This document shows, piece by piece, positions 11,248 through 60,903 of a stretch of DNA of 64,000 nucleotides. The DNA comes from an uncultured Akkermansia sp. (GTDB lineage: Bacteria; Verrucomicrobiota; Verrucomicrobiia; Verrucomicrobiales; Akkermansiaceae), in NCBI GenBank assembly GCA_947588735.1, contig CANQAD010000001.1:20086-84085 (forward strand), read 5' to 3'. The notes beneath the pieces were generated by a model that saw only the letters and a list, made by a program, of their open reading frames with translations, did no database searches and was not told the origin of the DNA. The position numbers and the translations under genes are program-made. The stretch's first letter is position 1, and the number at the start of each line of letters is the position of its first letter.

Positions 11248-11672
11248 CACGTTCGTCCCAAGAAAGAGCAATCCCCAATAAGTTGTTAACGGCGCATCGT
11301 TCAACGCAAATCGTTGATTATTTACGATTTACGATTTACGATTGACGATTTGGAAAGAAAGCGAGCCGGAGGCTCGGAAAATGCGGAGCGTGGGCGACGG
11401 GAAAAGGCGGAACCAGGCGCAGATTGGTTAGAAAGCGAAGCTCAATTTTCTAAGTCAAGATGCGATGATCAAGGGAAAGCATCCGGTGTTACGCTATGCC
11501 GGGCTGACTCATCGGTCTTACCACCGCTGCGCGTGCGCCCTACCGGGGAGCGTTGACCGCTTTGCTGAATCGTCCATGGTTTGCTGTCTTGCTGGCCTGC
11601 TTCTTTCGCCCTTGGAAAACGCATGGGAAATGGGTTCAATAAGACCGGAGAATATTTTCTTGGGACACGTGT
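11248..11672 (-). mobile_element. Family B repeat, copy 1 (MITE-like, 425 bp)
   Basis: The element is in reverse orientation. Its ends are CACGTTCGTCCCA (left) and, read inward from the right, ACACGTGTCCCA. The 10-bp sequence GCCGTATGCT flanks it directly on both sides (11238-11247 and 11673-11682), which is a target-site duplication. It contains a heptad array (TTACGATT units, about 11316-11350) and GC-rich sequence shared with the copies near 29.1 and 35.7 kb. It has no transposase. It ends 45 bases before the ychF -10 box. Confidence 0.8.
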
Positions 11673-11732
11673 GCCGTATGCTTAGTAATTTTTCTTTTCT
11701 CTTGAGTGGAGGTGCTGTAGAATAGCGGCGTT

Positions 11733-12854: not shown

Positions 12855-12954
12855 GCGTTCCAACGACTGTTCCGGGAAGGTTGTCGTGCATGCGTTTCCG
12901 GCAAGGGGACGCGCATGCTTTGGGGACCTCATCTGCCAGGGAAACTGCATAGGA

Positions 12955-13030
12955 CATGCGGTTGCCATTTACGATTCCCGAGATGAGATTTACAATTTTT
13001 TGATAACGTGCTCTCTGAGCAGGTTGCTCT
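12955..13030 (+). repeat. Decayed family A repeat fragment
   Basis: The segment reads ATGCGGTTGCCATTTACGATT..., then TTTTTTGATAACGTGC and a CTGAGCAG end. It follows the order of the left part of family A (ATGCGGTTGCTATTTACGATT ... TTTATTGATCATGTGC...GCGCAG) with many changes. It lies immediately upstream of the intact copy at 13043, so it appears to be an older relic. Confidence 0.55.
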
Positions 13031-13042
13031 GATTCTTATGTC

Positions 13043-13283
13043 CACGGCAACCGCATTAGGAAATGCGGTTGCTATTTACGATTGACGATGCACGAATTAC
13101 TATTTATTGATAATGTGCGCGTTGCGCAGTTTTTTATCGAATCGTGAACGTAGGCAGGAGAGTTCTCGAGAGCCATCATCATGATGACTGCTTGTTGTCA
13201 TTTTTTGGTGCGTATCAACGACAATATCAGCCAACAAAGCCATTTTCTCCGTTGATGAATTTCTTTCAAATGCGGTTGCCCTG
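13043..13283 (+). mobile_element. Family A repeat, copy 1 (MITE-like, 241 bp)
   Basis: Terminal inverted repeats are CACGGCAACCGCATT on the left and CAGGGCAACCGCATT read inward from the right. The flanking 10-mers TTCTTATGTC at 13033-13042 and 13284-13293 are identical, giving a target-site duplication. Inside are a left-end hairpin (AACCGCAT/ATGCGGTT), a heptad array, a TGCGCGTTGCGCA hairpin followed by T, and the palindrome TCATCATGATGA. There is no coding capacity. It lies between the convergent ends of ychF and the lemA-like gene. Confidence 0.88.
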
Positions 13284-13346
13284 TTCTTATGTCGTATTGC
13301 CTTGACAAGGCGATTGCTTTCGTAGATGGCGATTCCTCACGCTGTT

Positions 13347-16782: not shown

Positions 16783-17024
16783 CACGGCAACCGCATGAGA
16801 AAATGCGGTTGCTATTGACGATTGACGAGTTATGAATTACGATTTATTGATCATGTGCGTGTTGAGCAGTTTTTTTTGAATCATGAACGTAGGCAGGAGA
16901 GTTCTCGAGAGCCATCATCATGATGACTGTTTGTTGTCATTTTTTTTGATGCGTATCAACAATCATATCAGACAACAAGGCCATTTTCTCCGTTGATGAA
17001 CTTCTTTCAAATGCGGTTGCCCCG
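16783..17024 (+). mobile_element. Family A repeat, copy 2 (MITE-like, 242 bp)
   Basis: Left end CACGGCAACCGCAT; right end read inward CGGGGCAACCGCATT. The flanking 10-mers GGAGGATGCG at 16773-16782 and 17025-17034 are identical. Internal layout is the same as the copy at 13043. It lies 94 bases upstream of the uvrA -10 box, in the 827-base gap between tatD and uvrA. Confidence 0.88.
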
Positions 17025-17130: not shown

Positions 17131-20100
17131 ATGAAAAGGGATGATGCAGATTCCATCCGCATCCGCGGCGCGGCGGAAAATAATTTGAAGAAGATTGACG
17201 TGGATATACCGTTGGGGAAACTATCGGTGATAACGGGGCCGAGCGGGAGCGGTAAAACGTCTCTGGCGATGGCTACGCTGTATGCCGAGGGGCAGCGGCG
17301 CTACGTGGAGACATTTTCGCCCTATGTTCGGCAATTTATGGATCGCATGGACAGGCCTGCCGTGGATGCCGTGGAAAATGTACCTCCTGCTATCGCGCTC
17401 AGCCAGCGCAATTCCGTCAAAAACTCCCGATCTACAGTCGGGACGATGACAGGTATCAATGAGTATCTGAAGATTGTTTTTTCACGTCTTGCGGTGGGAC
17501 GCGATGCAGAGGGGCGGGAGGTGCGCCCTGCTACGCCGCAGGGGGTGGCGGCAGAGCTGCTGCGCGACCATTCGGGGGCAGATGCCGTGATTCTTTTCAG
17601 AGTGGTTCCTGTGGGCAGCTTCGCAGAGATGCGCGCTGCTTTGGTGGCGCAGGGATATTTGCGTGTGTGGGTAAAGGGAAACATCGTTCGTCTTGAAGAG
17701 GCCTCTGAGAAGCAGTTGGGCATGAAAGGATGGCTAGTGGTTCAGGATCGTCTGCGTTTGTCATCTGAGAATGTCGGGCGTCTGACAGAGGCGCTGGAAA
17801 ATGCGCTGCACTTTGGGGAAAATAGTGTGCAGATATCCTTGCGGACGGGGGAAGGCGGCTGGGGCAAGCCTATTGTGCGTCGCAGCGACTGGTATCCGCT
17901 GCTTGAACCAAAACCGGGACTCTTCAGCGGTAATTCCCCGTTGGGTGCATGTCCGGCATGCAAAGGCTACGGGCGCGCTGTTTCCTATGACTACAACAAG
18001 GGCATCCTTCCTCACCTTTCCATTCGCGACGGCGCTCTCAAAATGCTTTCTACGCCTACGCTCTCTGCCTGCTACCGCGATTTTGTGCGCGTCAACAAAA
18101 AGTGCCAGGCAGTGCGTATGGACGTGCCCTGGAATAAGCTGACTAAAAAAGAGCGCGACTTTGTACTTTCAGGCAATTGTGGGGACATGGATGTATGGGA
18201 AGCCTATGACAAAGGATATTGGTACGGTTACAAGGGCATCTTTGAGGACATGGAGAAGCATGCGCATAAGATGACAGTGCGCGTGTTCCTGTCTTACTAT
18301 CGGGTTTACAGCGTGTGCCCGGAGTGCGGTGGGGGAAGGCTGCGGCCTGAAGCGCTCGCTTTCACCATAGGCGGGCTCACGGTGCCGCAGGTGCAGGCTC
18401 TGCCCATGGATGAGCTGCTGGTGTGGGTTGATGAGCACGTGCTGTCAAAGGTGGAAGGAGATCGCTCGTTGGCGCAGGCCGTGCGTGAGCTGCGCAGTCG
18501 CGTGGCCTACCTGTGCGAGGTGGGACTGCCGTATTTGAGCGCATCGCGGCTCACGAGGTCTCTTTCCGGTGGCGAGATAGAGCGCGTGAGCCTGACAGCT
18601 TGTCTGGGCGCCTCGCTCACGGAAACTCTTTTTGTGCTTGATGAACCAACCGTTGGTTTGCACTCGCGCGATACGGCTCGTCTTATTTCTGCAATGCGTC
18701 GGCTGACAGAGCGCGGGAACACGCTCGTTGTGGTGGAGCATGAGGAGGCCGTGATGCGTGCGGCGGATTACATTGCGGATCTGGGGCCATCCAGTGGTGC
18801 GGCCGGCGGAGAGTTGGTGTATGCCGGAGCCCCTGGGGGATTGCCCGGCGCACCACGTTCGCTCACCGGGCAATATCTGAGCGGCGCGCGCTGCATTCCC
18901 ATTCCACCGAACCGCCGAAAGCCCACTGGCTTCATCAAGATTCGCGGTGCTGAATGTCACAACCTTCATCATTTTGACATAGACATTCCACTGGGGGTGT
19001 ACACGTGCCTTACCGGTGTGTCTGGCAGTGGCAAGAGCACCTTGGCCTGTCAAGTGCTCTATGGACATGTGCATCCTGATGAGCTGGATGATGAGGAGAA
19101 CGTGCGTGTGAAATCCATACGCGGGTTGGAGAGGGTGCAGGGGGTCGTGCTGGTGGATCAGAGTCCCATTGTGCGTACGCCGCGATCCACGCCTGCACTT
19201 TACATGAAAATTTTTGAAGAGATACGCGCGCTTTTTGTGCAGGAACCCGCGGCGCAGGCTCGAGGGCTGAAACCTGGTTATTTTTCTTTCAACAGCGGGG
19301 AGGGACGTTGTCCGCGCTGCGCAGGGTTAGGAATGGAAAAGGTGGAGATGCAGTTTCTTTCGGATATTTTTGTGCCCTGCGAGTTATGCCACGGTACGCG
19401 CTACACGTCCCGCGCGCTCAGTATCACTCATCTCGGACTGAATATGGCAGAGGTGCTGGCGCTGGATGTGAAATCAGCCATTGATTTTTTTGCGCAGGAG
19501 GAGAATGTCCATACAGGACGCATCCTGCAAGGCTTGGAGTTGTTACAGGAGGTAGGACTGGGGCATCTTGGACTCGGGCAGCCGCTGCACACCCTCTCCG
19601 GCGGTGAGAATCAAAGGCTCAAGCTTGCGCGCATTCTTTCAGAATCGGCGTTTTCCATGGAAGGTGGAGGAAGCTTGTTGATACTCGATGAGCCTGGAAC
19701 AGGGCTGCATTTTTCAGATTTGGAGGTGCTGTTGGCGGTCTTCAAACGTTTGGTAGAGCAGGGGCATTCTTTGCTGGTCATTGAGCACAATCTTGATCTC
19801 ATCAAATGTGCAGACTACGTGATTGACCTGGGACCGGAAGGAGGCAAGGACGGAGGGCAGGTCGAGGCTGTCGGAGAGCCGGAACAAATCGTTCGGCAGG
19901 GGCGAGGACATACGGCGTCTTTTTTGAAGCTTGCGCTGACCGGAAAACCCATCGCATCTCAGCTGACTGCTCCTAACTCTGAGCCTTCAAGATCAGAGCG
20001 TATGATTTCACTGCGCGGCGCGCGCCACCATCAACTCAAAAACATAGATGTGGACATCCCCCTGCACAAGATGACCGTAGTTACGGGTCTGTCCGGCAGT

Positions 20101-22644
20101 GGCAAGAGTACACTTGCTTTCGACATTATTTTTGCCGAGGGACAGAAGCGTTTCATGGACGTGATGAGCCCCTACGCCCGGCAGTTCACGGACCAGATGG
20201 AGACGCCGGATATTGACGCGCTTACGGGACTGCCGCCGACGGTGGCCATTGAGCAGAATCGCACGCGGGGCGGAAGTAAATCGACTGTGGGCACGGTGAC
20301 GGAAATATGGCAATATCTCCGCTTGCTTTACGCAAAGTTGGGCGTTCCTCACTGTCCAAAATGCGGGGTGGAGGTAGGGCGCCGTTCCGCAGTTGAGATT
20401 CACGCCGCCGTTCAGCAGGCGATAGGCCGCAAACCGGCGTCGCTGCTCATCGCTGCCCCGGTCGTGCGTAACCGCAAGGGACATTATGCCGACCTCGCCC
20501 GTTGGGCTGCTCGAAAGCATTACCCCTTCCTCATAGCAGACGGCTCACTGGTGGCGCCGGATGATTTTGCCCCATTGGATCGCTATGCCAACCACGATGT
20601 GGATGTGGTGGTGGCGGAGATCAACGTGAAGAACAACGCTATCTTTATGAATGGAGCTGCTTGCGATTTCGCGGCGCTGCAGGAATGCACGGACCATGCG
20701 CTGGAAATGGGAGATGGTTTTCTGAGGCTGATCAACCATCGCGATGTAAAACGCTCCACGCTTCTTGGTACGCGTCTCACCTGTCCGAAGTGCGGGGAAA
20801 CGTATGCCGACCCGGAGCCGTCCACTTTTTCTTTCAATTCGCCCCGCGGTTGGTGCCCCACTTGCCTGGGACACGGTTTTGTGCAGCGGCACACTCGCAT
20901 CCGTCGCGAGGAAGATGCCCGCATCAGCGAACTTGAAAAAGAGCTGCGCTTTGACAGGGAAGCCGAGCAGGCGGCTGAAAAAGGCGACCTCACCTGCGTG
21001 TGCCCCATCTGCGGCGGTAAGCGGTTGAATTCCTTTGCTCTCGGGGTTACTCTTTCCGGGCATTCCATCGCCGATCTTGGCGAGATGGACGCACAAAGCG
21101 CATTACGTATGGTTCAGAGCTGGCGGTTTAGTGGACGCGAGTCCGAGATTGCTCGCAATGTGGTGGCAGAGATTGAACCGCGCCTGCGGTTTTTGCAAGG
21201 GGTAGGGCTGGGCTATCTTTCCATGAATCGGGCAGCCACTACTCTTTCCGGCGGAGAAATCCAACGCATCCGCTTGGCAGCGCAGCTCGGTTCTAATCTG
21301 CGCGGTGTACTCTATGTCCTCGATGAGCCGACCATAGGTTTGCACCCACGAGATAACGAACGCCTGCTTGCCACACTGGATGATCTGAAACACCGTGGCA
21401 ACACGCTGCTGGTGGTGGAGCATGACGAGGATACCATGCGCAGCGCTGACGCCATTATTGACTTGGGTCCGGGCGCCGGGATTCACGGCGGTCGTGTAAT
21501 TGCAGAGGGCACATTGGACGACATCATGAAAAATCCTGCTTCCGTCACTGGCCAGGCCTTTCGCCAAACGGAGGCGCACCCGTACTGCGGTAAATGGCTG
21601 CCGTTGAAAAATGCAGAGTGGCTGGAGCTCACCGGTTGCAATCTGCACAATTTGCAAAATGTGACGCTGCGTATCCCCCGGGGGCGGTTCACGGTGGTCA
21701 CCGGTCCATCCGGCGCGGGTAAAACCTCGCTTGTCATCGACACACTGGGGCCTGCTGTGCGTCGTGCTGCGGGCGATGTGTCCATTCCCAGGACGTGGAA
21801 GACGGCAAAAGGGCTCAAGTCCGTGCACACGCTGTATCAGGTGGACCAAAGTCCGCTTGGCAAGACACCGCGGTCCACCCCGGCCACATACATCGGGATT
21901 TTTGACGAAATTCGCAAACTTTTTGCGCAGTCGGCAGATGCGCGTCGCCTCGGGTTTGATGCGAGTCGGTTTTCTTTTAACACGGCCTCCGGTAATTGCC
22001 CGGACTGCAAGGGCACAGGTTTTACCCGCTGTGAGATGGATTTTCTGCCTCCGTGCGCCGTTCCCTGCGAGACTTGCCGTGGTTCACGCTACAATTCCCG
22101 AACGTTGCAGGTGCGCTACCACGGGAAAAATATTTCTGAGGTATTGGAGATGAACATGGAGCAAGCTGCTGCGTTTTTTGAGAGCCAGCCTCGTCTCGCA
22201 GATCCTCTGCATTTGCTGTGTGACACCGGGTTAGGTTATCTCACCCTCGGGCAGGCGAGCAATACTCTTTCCGGCGGTGAGGCCCAACGCGTCAAACTCG
22301 TTTCCGAGCTCATTAAGGGGCGCCGTGCCGCGCTCACTGCCATTCGCCACGGTCGAACTCTGCCGCAGGATCTCTACCTCATTGAAGAACCGACCATCGG
22401 TCTGCACCCTCAGGATGTGCGTCTTCTTGTCCGCGTACTCCGGCGTCTTGTTGAACTTGGCAATACGGTGGTGGTCATCGAACACAATTTGGACCTCATC
22501 TGCGAAGCCGATTTTGTCGTCGATTTGGGGCCAGGGGCTGGCAATGGCGGCGGACGGATTGTCGCTTCCGGGACTCCCAAGCAAATTGCGCGCTCTCGTT
22601 CTGCACCGACGGCTCCCTTCATCCGTGCTCAGCTTGACAAGTGA
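17131..22644 (+). CDS. uvrA: Tandem (double-length) UvrA, nucleotide excision repair
   Basis: UvrA is the damage-sensing ABC ATPase of nucleotide excision repair and normally acts as a dimer of ~940-residue chains. Here one 1837-residue chain holds two complete UvrA units: four Walker A motifs (starting near residues 36, 629, 986 and 1525), four LSGGE signatures (EIERVSL, ENQRLKL, EIQRIRL, EAQRVKL), and several zinc-finger Cys pairs (CPACKGYG, CPRCAGLG, CPTCLGHG, CPDCKGTG). The second unit is closer to canonical UvrA (KSTVGTVTEIWQYLRLLYAKLG) than the first. Chlamydial UvrA is also about 1.8 kaa, so this fits the PVC group. A TACAAT box ends 6 bases before the ATG. Confidence 0.95.
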   Translation: MKRDDADSIRIRGAAENNLKKIDVDIPLGKLSVITGPSGSGKTSLAMATLYAEGQRRYVETFSPYVRQFMDRMDRPAVDAVENVPPAIALSQRNSVKNSRSTVGTMTGINEYLKIVFSRLAVGRDAEGREVRPATPQGVAAELLRDHSGADAVILFRVVPVGSFAEMRAALVAQGYLRVWVKGNIVRLEEASEKQLGMKGWLVVQDRLRLSSENVGRLTEALENALHFGENSVQISLRTGEGGWGKPIVRRSDWYPLLEPKPGLFSGNSPLGACPACKGYGRAVSYDYNKGILPHLSIRDGALKMLSTPTLSACYRDFVRVNKKCQAVRMDVPWNKLTKKERDFVLSGNCGDMDVWEAYDKGYWYGYKGIFEDMEKHAHKMTVRVFLSYYRVYSVCPECGGGRLRPEALAFTIGGLTVPQVQALPMDELLVWVDEHVLSKVEGDRSLAQAVRELRSRVAYLCEVGLPYLSASRLTRSLSGGEIERVSLTACLGASLTETLFVLDEPTVGLHSRDTARLISAMRRLTERGNTLVVVEHEEAVMRAADYIADLGPSSGAAGGELVYAGAPGGLPGAPRSLTGQYLSGARCIPIPPNRRKPTGFIKIRGAECHNLHHFDIDIPLGVYTCLTGVSGSGKSTLACQVLYGHVHPDELDDEENVRVKSIRGLERVQGVVLVDQSPIVRTPRSTPALYMKIFEEIRALFVQEPAAQARGLKPGYFSFNSGEGRCPRCAGLGMEKVEMQFLSDIFVPCELCHGTRYTSRALSITHLGLNMAEVLALDVKSAIDFFAQEENVHTGRILQGLELLQEVGLGHLGLGQPLHTLSGGENQRLKLARILSESAFSMEGGGSLLILDEPGTGLHFSDLEVLLAVFKRLVEQGHSLLVIEHNLDLIKCADYVIDLGPEGGKDGGQVEAVGEPEQIVRQGRGHTASFLKLALTGKPIASQLTAPNSEPSRSERMISLRGARHHQLKNIDVDIPLHKMTVVTGLSGSGKSTLAFDIIFAEGQKRFMDVMSPYARQFTDQMETPDIDALTGLPPTVAIEQNRTRGGSKSTVGTVTEIWQYLRLLYAKLGVPHCPKCGVEVGRRSAVEIHAAVQQAIGRKPASLLIAAPVVRNRKGHYADLARWAARKHYPFLIADGSLVAPDDFAPLDRYANHDVDVVVAEINVKNNAIFMNGAACDFAALQECTDHALEMGDGFLRLINHRDVKRSTLLGTRLTCPKCGETYADPEPSTFSFNSPRGWCPTCLGHGFVQRHTRIRREEDARISELEKELRFDREAEQAAEKGDLTCVCPICGGKRLNSFALGVTLSGHSIADLGEMDAQSALRMVQSWRFSGRESEIARNVVAEIEPRLRFLQGVGLGYLSMNRAATTLSGGEIQRIRLAAQLGSNLRGVLYVLDEPTIGLHPRDNERLLATLDDLKHRGNTLLVVEHDEDTMRSADAIIDLGPGAGIHGGRVIAEGTLDDIMKNPASVTGQAFRQTEAHPYCGKWLPLKNAEWLELTGCNLHNLQNVTLRIPRGRFTVVTGPSGAGKTSLVIDTLGPAVRRAAGDVSIPRTWKTAKGLKSVHTLYQVDQSPLGKTPRSTPATYIGIFDEIRKLFAQSADARRLGFDASRFSFNTASGNCPDCKGTGFTRCEMDFLPPCAVPCETCRGSRYNSRTLQVRYHGKNISEVLEMNMEQAAAFFESQPRLADPLHLLCDTGLGYLTLGQASNTLSGGEAQRVKLVSELIKGRRAALTAIRHGRTLPQDLYLIEEPTIGLHPQDVRLLVRVLRRLVELGNTVVVIEHNLDLICEADFVVDLGPGAGNGGGRIVASGTPKQIARSRSAPTAPFIRAQLDK

Positions 22645-29030: not shown

Positions 29031-29128
29031 GGATCGGTGTAGCTGGCAGTTCGACTTCTACCCACTTGTGTTTTACCAAAAATTGTCCATCTCTTCAATC
29101 TTTTTTTGCGTGAAAATGAATGAAAAGC

Positions 29129-29467
29129 ACACGTGTCCCAATAAAAATATTCTCCGGGCGCATTGAACGCATTCTCCATGCGTTTTCTATGGACGAAGAA
29201 AGTAAATCAAGCAAGACGGCAACCCGCGGACGATTCAGCAAAGCGGCCGACGACCCCGGTAGGGCGCACGCGAAGCGAGCGGTAAGAACGTTTCCCTTGA
29301 TCATCGAATCTCGTCTTCGAAAATTCCGCTTCGCATTTACTGCGCATCCCACGCGCAGGCGCGCCAGCATTCAAATCGTCATTCGTCAGTCGAAAATTAT
29401 GAATAGTTTATGCTACATGATGCGGCGACAATCGCCTGCTGGGATTGCTGTTTCCTGGGACGGATGT
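29129..29467 (+). mobile_element. Family B repeat, copy 2 (MITE-like, 339 bp)
   Basis: The left end ACACGTGTCCCA is intact; the right end TGGGACGGATGT is diverged. The inner sequence (TTCTCCGGGC near the left end, CCCCGGTAGGGCGCACGCG, and a heptad array at about 29372-29400) matches the copies at 11.2 and 35.7 kb. No flanking duplication remains. It lies between the divergent cassette D gene and the family A copy at 29489. Confidence 0.7.
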
Positions 29468-29488: not shown

Positions 29489-29728
29489 CGGGGCAACCGC
29501 ATTAGGAAATGCGGTTGCTATTTACGATTGACGATGTACGGATTACGATTTATTGATCATGTGCGCGTTGCGCAGTTTTTTCGAATCATGAACGTAGGCA
29601 GGAGAGTTCTTGAGAGCCATCATCATGATGACCGCTTGTTGTCATTTTTTTGATGTGTATCAACGATCATATCAGCCAACAAGAGCATTTTCTCCGTTGA
29701 TGAACTTCTTTCAAATGCGTTTGACCTG
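29489..29728 (+). mobile_element. Family A repeat, copy 3 (MITE-like, 240 bp)
   Basis: Left end CGGGGCAACCGCATT; right end read inward CAGGTCAAACGCATT. The flanking 10-mers GGTGTATCCA (29479-29488 and 29729-29738) are identical. The right-hand duplication ends 3 bases before the -35 box of the next gene's promoter, so the element forms the upstream edge of that promoter. Confidence 0.88.
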
Positions 29729-29741
29729 GGTGTATCCAAGC

Positions 29742-29771
29742 TTGACAGGATTATCTGGGCACGGATATAAT
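29742..29771 (+). promoter_or_regulatory. Promoter of the PA14-like gene
   Basis: TTGACA (29742-29747) and TATAAT (29766-29771) with an 18-base spacer are both consensus. The ATG at 29796 is 24 bases downstream of the -10 box. Confidence 0.75.
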
Positions 29772-35738: not shown

Positions 35739-36107
35739 CACACGTGTCCCAATAAAATCTTCTCCGGGCTCATTCAATCCATTTCCCATGCGTTTTCTTC
35801 GGACGAAAATGGCAGCGCTTCGCCTCCCCGAGCGTCAGCGTGCAAATTCCCCAAATCGAAAATCAAAAATCGTAACTCGAAAATCCCCTTGTGATTCAAC
35901 TTCGCTCCCCCACTCAGCTTTCTCATTAGTCATGCGCGCGGTTCCGCCCTCCCCCGTCGCTACCGCTCCGCATTTCCCGAGCCTCCGGCTCGCTAGCTTT
36001 TGCAAATCGTCAATCGTCAATCGTCATTCATAAATAACCAAAGGCTTATGCTTCATAATGTGCCGTTAACGACCTGTCGGGGGTGCTTTTTTCTCGGGAC
36101 ACGTGTG
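35739..36107 (+). mobile_element. Family B repeat, copy 3 (MITE-like, 369 bp)
   Basis: Perfect 12-bp terminal inverted repeats CACACGTGTCCC / GGGACACGTGTG bound the element. The flanks CATTTGAGG and GATTTGAGG differ at one base, a decayed target duplication. It carries two heptad arrays, at about 35853-35886 and 36004-36033 (AATCGTC units). The left end is 39 bases upstream of the ligA -35 box. Confidence 0.82.
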
Positions 36108-36117
36108 GATTTGAGGG

Positions 36118-46041: not shown

Positions 46042-46070
46042 ATTCTATCATTTACCTCATGCACAGTCAA
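46042..46070 (-). promoter_or_regulatory. Promoter of the acyltransferase gene, no leader
   Basis: On the minus strand TTGACT (46070-46065), 17-base spacer and TAGAAT (46047-46042). Only 7 bases separate the -10 box from ATG 46034. A TTG start at 46070 would lie in the -35 box and is rejected. Confidence 0.72.
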
Positions 46071-46088: not shown

Positions 46089-46330
46089 CAGGGCAACCGC
46101 ATTAGGAAATGCGGTTACTATTTACGATTGACGAGTTACGAATTACGATTTATTGATCATGTGCGCGTTGCGCAGTTTATTTCGAATCATGAACGTAGGC
46201 AGGAGAGTTCTTGAGAGCCGTCATCATGATGACGGCTTGTTGTCATTTTTTTTGATGCGTATCAACAATAATATCAATCAACAAGGCCATTTTCTCCGTT
46301 GATGAACTTCTTTCAAATTCGTTTGCTCTG
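46089..46330 (+). mobile_element. Family A repeat, copy 4 (MITE-like, 242 bp)
   Basis: Left end CAGGGCAACCGCATT; right end read inward CAGAGCAAACGAATT. The flanking 10-mers GATCCTGTCT (46079-46088 and 46331-46340) are identical. Directly after the right duplication another copy of the left-end sequence starts (46341). Confidence 0.88.
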
Positions 46331-46340
46331 GATCCTGTCT

Positions 46341-46355
46341 CAGGGCAATCGCATT
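46341..46355 (+). repeat. Solitary family A end next to copy 4
   Basis: CAGGGCAATCGCATT differs from the family A left end at one base and abuts the target duplication of copy 4. What follows does not match the element. It suggests that copy 4 inserted exactly at the outer edge of an older element, or that a second copy was lost. Confidence 0.6.
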
Positions 46356-53952: not shown

Positions 53953-53981
53953 ACTCTATCGTAAACCCCTTCGTTTGTCAA
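53953..53981 (-). promoter_or_regulatory. Promoter of purN, very short leader
   Basis: TTGACA (53981-53976), 17-base spacer and TAGAGT (53958-53953) on the minus strand; 9 bases to the ATG. A truncated family A element begins 18 bases upstream of the -35 box. Confidence 0.72.
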
Positions 53982-53999: not shown

Positions 54000-54060
54000 C
54001 AGGGCAACCGCATTAGGAAATGCGGTTGCTATTTACGATTGACGAGTTACGAATTACGAT
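54000..54060 (+). repeat. Family A repeat, copy 5, right part missing
   Basis: The left end CAGGGCAACCGCATT, the TAGGAA loop hairpin and the heptad array are nearly identical to the intact copies, then similarity stops abruptly after ACGAATTACGAT at 54060. The remaining 180 bases of the element, and any right-hand duplication, are gone. Confidence 0.8.
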
Positions 54061-54124
54061 GTCAGTTTTGCGCATGCTGCGCTTCCTCGGTCTTTGCTTC
54101 TCCCCGTGATTTTTCTCCGCCGAC

Positions 54125-60608: not shown

Positions 60609-60681
60609 TACCCCCGCACGGGCTCGAACCGTGGACAAACTGATTAAGAGTCAGCTGCTCTACCAACTGAGCTACGGAGGC
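60609..60681 (-). tRNA. tRNA-Lys (CTT), copy 2
   Basis: On the minus strand: acceptor GCCTCCG/CGGGGGT, D arm GCTCAGTTGGTAGAGC, anticodon loop ACTCTTAAT with anticodon CTT, T arm CACGG-TTCGAGC-CCGTG, discriminator A. It is identical to the copy 116 bases upstream. CCA is not encoded. Confidence 0.92.
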
Positions 60682-60724
60682 TTTGCCGATGGTACAGCTC
60701 ACCGCTGCCGCTGTGCGCTGTGCT

Positions 60725-60797
60725 TACCCCCGCACGGGCTCGAACCGTGGACAAACTGATTAAGAGTCAGCTGCTCTACCAACTGAGCTACGGAGGC
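60725..60797 (-). tRNA. tRNA-Lys (CTT), copy 1
   Basis: Same sequence and structure as the copy at 60609-60681, in tandem. The 43-base spacer between them is unrelated to the tRNA. Confidence 0.92.
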
Positions 60798-60831
60798 CTT
60801 CTTGTAGCGCCCACATTGTGCCTTGGAAGCA

Positions 60832-60903
60832 AGCCGCTGGTCAGATTTGAACTGACGACCCACGCATTACGAATGCGTTGCTCTACCACTGAGCTACAGC
60901 GGC
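60832..60903 (-). tRNA. tRNA-Thr (anticodon CGT)
   Basis: On the minus strand: acceptor GCCGCTG/CAGCGGC, D arm GCTCAGTGGTAGAGC, anticodon loop TTCGTAA with anticodon CGT, T arm GTCAG-TTCAAAT-CTGAC. It heads the tRNA cluster (Thr-Lys-Lys) upstream of lepA. Confidence 0.93.

Follow-up and report, generated by a model that had tools for sequence, protein, structure and literature searches.

A gene-less, ISAs1-type MITE family of Akkermansia preferentially inserted at a fixed distance from sigma70-type promoters and probably steered there by RNA polymerase

The repeat family and its surroundings

The stretch of DNA analysed here (the window) comprises 64,000 nucleotides of contig CANQAD010000001.1 from an uncultured Akkermansia sp., and it carries four full copies of a short repeat, termed family A, whose element is a gene-less MITE of about 241 bp. 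Partial members at 12937, 46341 and 54000 add to the four copies listed by an earlier reading made from the sequence alone (the sequence-only reading). The features are as follows.

12937-13032, plus strand: older truncated relative, left part only, adjoining copy 1
13033-13042, no strand: target duplication TTCTTATGTC left of copy 1, exact repeat
13043-13283, plus strand: MITE copy 1, 241 bp, with inverted-repeat ends, 10-bp target duplication and 42 near full-length genome matches
13043-13072, plus strand: left-end hairpin of copy 1, GCAACCGCATT-AGGA-AATGCGGTTGC, by folding; same in other family copies
13284-13293, no strand: target duplication TTCTTATGTC right of copy 1, exact repeat
13302-13307, plus strand: TTGACA facing away from copy 1, 8 bp past the duplication, good -10 absent at 16-18 bp
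16783-17024, plus strand: MITE copy 2, 242 bp, target duplication GGAGGATGCG, without an in-register promoter
29489-29728, plus strand: MITE copy 3, 240 bp, by its ends and target duplication GGTGTATCCA
29742-29771, plus strand: perfect sigma70-type promoter TTGACA-N18-TATAAT facing away from copy 3, 3 bp (not 8) past the duplication
46042-46070, minus strand: promoter TTGACT-N17-TAGAAT facing away from copy 4, -35 exactly 8 bp past the duplication
46089-46330, plus strand: MITE copy 4, 242 bp, by its ends and target duplication GATCCTGTCT
46341-46355, plus strand: second inverted repeat CAGGGCAATCGCATT directly after copy 4's right-hand duplication, left over from a tandem neighbour
54000-54062, plus strand: left part of another family member, with a minus-strand TTGACA (53976-53981) 18 bp from its edge

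Both the positions of the four copies (240-242 bp in length) and their 10-bp flanks had been given exactly by the sequence-only reading. Its remark that all copies share one orientation holds for the four full copies of the window, all on the plus strand; genome-wide, both orientations are present. The ends are imperfect, with CACGG on the left at 13043 and 16783 and CGGGG at 29489, and on the right ...GCCCCG at 16783, ...TTTGACCTG at 29489 and ...TTTGCTCTG at 46089. Directly inside the left end lies an inverted copy of the terminal repeat, forming the hairpin listed above, and the right end has none. As a single strand the whole element folds modestly better than its shuffles (z=-2.2), and an Rfam search with the element gave no match. 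Perfect 34-bp palindromes (CAGGGCAACCGCATT-N4-mirror) were considered as stand-alone minimal elements and rejected, as none had a flush duplication; they belong to longer elements as left-end hairpins, or are remnants.

The source genome (G000, a draft of 2.2 Mb in 110 contigs, 89% complete) holds at least 42 near full-length copies, matching at 83-100% identity, with a median pairwise identity of 93% among copies and at least one further copy (L271) found later. With 42 genome matches and a duplication of its own at each verified copy, the four-copy repeat is far beyond chance. The 15-bp end has 421 near matches in this genome vs 50 for a control pattern, hence several families, the 241-bp one among them, have these ends in common; several congeners contain related families, at about 72-87% identity. 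Some family A copies stand head to tail with one duplication common to both, in the order TSD-E-TSD-E-TSD (TSD, target duplication; E, element), as at C13:7523-8009 (L012), C42:8044-8357 and window 46089-46355, as if insertion recurs at the element's own edge.

A second gene-less repeat family is also present, at window 35739-36108, 11248-11675 and 29127-29432 and at many other loci of the genome. Its members measure about 370-420 bp, have the ends CACACGTGTCCC and are flanked by duplications of 8-9 bp (ATTTGAGG for the one at 35739); copies of the two families are nested in each other. Directly after copy 2, window 17131-22644 encodes a UvrA-like protein of 1837 aa, apparently double-length as judged by eye from the translation, and at 60609-60903 two near-identical tRNA-Lys(CTT) genes lie in tandem, adjoining a tRNA-Thr(CGT) gene.

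Transposition and the ISAs1 connection

A perfect direct repeat of 9-10 bp, different each time, flanks most of the 42 copies examined, and beyond these 9-10 bp the flanks differ at each site, so the 10-mers are target duplications and do not belong to any larger repeated block. Empty sites were sought by searching the joined flanks of nine insertions against 76 congeneric genomes, and at four loci relatives were found with gapless flanks and a single 10-mer: C7:45468 (empty in G020, at 99%, and also in G095 with a diverged 10-mer), C23:6139 (G077, G014), C6:25981 (G064, G068) and C21:6083 (G096, G016). Duplications and empty sites together bear out the earlier claim of real transposition, and neither of the two outcomes that the sequence-only reading had named as refuting it was observed. 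The closest relatives by the phosphoglycerate kinase gene are Akkermansia MAGs of a rabbit series (L092-L094). Window copies 1 and 2 were tried as empty-site loci and given up; the intergenic DNA of L092 and L093 is too diverged there, and the empty sites were therefore drawn from other copies. L093 is without the element at site 1, yet gives no clean alignment. At two of the empty-site promoters other species carry a separate element, placed on the same box or a few bases away from it (G077:C12:16950-17780, L337; G068:C37:19500-20250, L336), and for this reason the two shared promoters look like recurrent targets and are possible hot spots.

The sequence-only reading had called the element a MITE moved by a transposase encoded elsewhere, with ISAs1 named as one candidate type. 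Searching other Akkermansia genomes with the NF033564 model revealed full ISAs1 elements, about 1.31 kb long, and most of the intact ones carry CAGGGCAAACGCATT at both ends; both ends are found in G014, G016 (frame broken), G035, G060, G064 and G095. Their transposase consists of PF13808 and PF01609 (Pfam), and exact 10-bp duplications flank at least the copies L061 (GTGACTGTAT) and L226. The hint was thus a good one, and the full insertion sequence with matching ends that the sequence-only reading had proposed to look for exists in other species of the genus. The end motif CAGGGCAA[A/C]CGCATT is common to MITE and ISAs1, and in some MITE copies the final 20 bp are identical to those of the insertion sequences L059 and L062. 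ISAs1 elements of other phyla likewise begin CAGGGCAATCGCAT and have a 10-bp duplication; those from Chromatiales, Pseudomonas and Azospirillum begin CAGGG(C/G)AATCGCAT, again with 10-bp duplications.

ISAs1-type ends, a target duplication within 8-10 bp, a short, gene-less and multi-copy build and an autonomous partner in the genus are what identify the element as an ISAs1-type MITE. Because its 15-bp ends match those of the genus's full ISAs1 elements (PF13808 + PF01609, 10-bp duplication), its transposase family is, judged from sequence, ISAs1. From the ends, the duplication length and the target rule described below, we infer that an ISAs1 transposase mobilises the MITE in trans. MITE and insertion sequence are alike over the terminal 15-20 bp or so and nowhere else detectably, and an origin by internal deletion of an ISAs1 element, known for some MITEs but no prerequisite, was rejected, the interior being without homology; as only the ends align, 'ISAs1-mobilised' is a safer label than 'deletion derivative'. 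The NF033564 search detected no ISAs1 transposase in the source genome, an 89%-complete draft, a degree of completeness at which absence is not proven; a MITE usually has an autonomous partner in its own genome but does not need one there. This missing enzyme, and the fact that promoter targeting is typical of the Mutator-like ISLre2 and ISKra4 (PMC3942029), might suggest that a transposase of another kind, for example IS4-type or Mutator-like, moves the MITE and that the common ends are coincidental. We regard this as very improbable, given that the genus's true ISAs1 elements have the same 15-20-bp ends, the same 10-bp duplication and the same target register.

A fixed distance to sigma70-type promoters

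The target rule was first sighted as a TTGACA recurring at offset 18 when read outward from element edges. Among 52 duplication-verified insertions (104 flanks), picked regardless of promoters, TTGAC lies 8 bp past the duplication, that is 18 bp from the element edge, in 24 flanks, vs 0-2 at any other distance. Hexamers resembling a -35 box peak at the same +8 position (27). Those resembling a -10 box, for which scoring took no account of the -35, are commonest at +31/+32, with 14 over the two positions and no more than 2 at any other distance. The best full promoter is in register at 28 of the 52 sites, and a 38-site subset gives P~5e-18 when compared with random window positions. Aligning the 28 sites gives the consensus cTTGACA-N17-TGnTATAAT, sigma70-like and facing away from the element, and no consensus inside the duplication. 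In the MITE copies the box stands next to the hairpin end in 17 cases and the plain end in 9, and is unclear in 8. The register is without a TTG at 18 of the 52 verified sites, several of them apparently within genes.

The register also holds for autonomous ISAs1 copies (L061, L062, L063, L069, L226). A pattern search of 76 genomes with TTGCCCTG-N5..35-TTGACA found spacing 18 in 41 of 150 among the matches listed, with 24 at spacing 19 and 12 at 13, some of which look like repeat matches in conserved genes (near-identical strings). We regard the register, with 8 bp between the duplication and the -35 downstream of it, as established from comparison of sequences at sites taken from draft MAGs. 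The sequence-only reading is supported as far as it went, and the fixed-distance preference for TTGAC, or a -35 box, is an addition that was not visible to it.

In Verrucomicrobiota outside Akkermansia, a search for ISAs1-type ends that was selected for TTGAC and not for spacing found spacing 19 in 11 and spacing 18 in 3 of 49 cases, in several families. In one of these distant families an element of 241 bp with ISAs1 ends (L368, G247:C25:9300-10300) is flanked by an exact duplication of 10 bp and has TTGACG at +19 with a -10, and similar MITEs may occur phylum-wide. Proteobacterial ISAs1 elements with duplications do not clearly show the rule, the duplication-bearing sites being few: ISPa60 has one context only, adjoining msrB, with a -10 at +41, and a Methylosinus ISAs1 has TTGAAA at +18, both no more than hints. 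We propose tentatively, as somewhat less probable than its opposite, that ISAs1 elements in general, or those of the Verrucomicrobiota lineage if not all, recognise sigma70 polymerase bound at a promoter and insert at the upstream edge of the enzyme. If true, bacteria would have evolved polymerase-guided integration independently a second time, and MITEs would have carried it to hundreds of ends per genome.

For family A itself our preferred reading, with a probability of roughly 0.6, is a non-autonomous, ISAs1-mobilised Akkermansia MITE that is steered to promoters, probably by polymerase contact. The transposase, a DDE enzyme of the ISAs1 family, would come from elsewhere, be it another strain, a copy since lost or a stretch that the MAG is missing, and would bind the 15-bp ends; a 10-bp staggered cut at insertion would give rise to the 10-bp duplication. 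The integration complex would be steered to sigma70-type promoters so that, given a -35 in its ordinary position, the duplicated 10 bp correspond to about -53 to -44 from the transcription start. By position arithmetic and textbook knowledge, the upstream edge of the polymerase lies at about -53 to -44. Contact with promoter-bound sigma70 RNA polymerase is in our judgement the most likely cause of the register, and its effect would be that the core promoter and the -53 to -44 segment stay intact, presumably making for a low-cost site.

The same MITE and the same ISAs1 enzyme could also produce the register if the transposase read TTGAC in naked DNA 8 bp past the cut, promoters being hit only because TTGAC between genes commonly serves as a -35 box and insertions in genes are purged. 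Full-TTGAC sites have a -10 in 14 of 24 vs a 45% intergenic TTGAC background (P=0.13, no enrichment); the 10 register TTGAC sites that are without a -10 of at least 4/6 include L025, apparently in a gene, and window copy 1 at 13043, whose TTGACA at 13302 sits between convergent reading frames. As the -10 is unenriched at TTGAC sites and copy 1 has a TTGACA without a clear -10, TTGAC alone may suffice. Where the -35 at the register is weak (TTG, not TTGAC), however, a good -10 at 17 bp is found in 8 of 10 vs a 14% background (P=5e-6), a trade-off expected of sigma70 holoenzyme and not of a TTGAC reader. Because the weak -35 boxes mostly carry a good -10, we favour polymerase contact over direct reading of TTGAC, which we consider a serious but distinctly less probable cause.

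Random insertion followed by selection that retains harmless sites just upstream of promoters would need no targeting; such places are plausibly neutral, and one third of the sites are without an in-register box. Selection alone, however, would permit any distance and would not set a single-base one, whereas the observed spacing is exact to a single base, with 24 flanks at +8 and no other distance above 2, and the second repeat family described above, with its own 8-9-bp duplications, shows no promoter register, having 0 at 18 among about six usable sites, a small sample. We consider selection alone highly unlikely.

Comparison with known systems

In the open literature we found nothing on promoter targeting by ISAs1 or on Akkermansia MITEs, most subscription papers lying outside the search, and fixed-distance promoter targeting appears to be new for the ISAs1 family. 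Such targeting in bacteria has been described as an unusual property of Mutator-like transposases (Guerillot et al., 2014; PMC3942029), whose main text does not mention ISAs1. The same base-pair-exact behaviour in ISAs1 and its MITEs suggests that promoter-complex targeting evolved more than once. Dozens of independent insertions per genome constitute a natural set for testing the polymerase-contact model, and they indicate that the upstream regions of Akkermansia promoters have been repeatedly rebuilt by mobile DNA. For a gut lineage that is largely uncultured, the insertions also offer a signal by which promoters can be mapped.

With the ISAs1 insertion sequences (ISAs1, ISPa60, ISKpn31, ISAzs12 and others) the MITE shares the ends CAGGGCAAnCGCAT and the 10-bp duplication, and the PF13808 + PF01609 transposase is a feature of its autonomous partner. 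Unlike them it has no gene and only the ends in common, and targeting at a fixed distance upstream of promoters was not found described for ISAs1. Correia elements are bacterial MITEs that are likewise short, gene-less, bounded by inverted repeats, multi-copy and moved in trans, and differ in parent family and target rule. The same likeness and the same two differences apply to the Tn3-derived TIMEs (PMC4133298). Ty3 of yeast would resemble the MITE if the polymerase contact is right, in that initiation factors guide integration and the host gene is spared, the analogy drawn in PMC3942029; unlike the MITE, it uses an unrelated enzyme and the Pol III machinery.

The closest functional parallel is found in TnGBS and ISLre2 (p-MULT 3) and part of the ISKra4 group (p-MULT 4), all Mutator-like, which insert 15-17 bp upstream of promoters, at a fixed short distance from the sigmaA/sigma70 -35, and for which contact with the polymerase initiation complex has been proposed by analogy with Ty3 (Guerillot et al., 2014; PMC3942029). 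Their transposases belong to the Mutator superfamily, whereas the partner of the MITE is ISAs1 (PF01609/PF13808) and its distance is 18-19 bp; TnGBS and ISLre2 insertions are mostly in one orientation, and those of the MITE in both. The MITE works like the Mutator-like promoter-targeting elements and is not a member of them.
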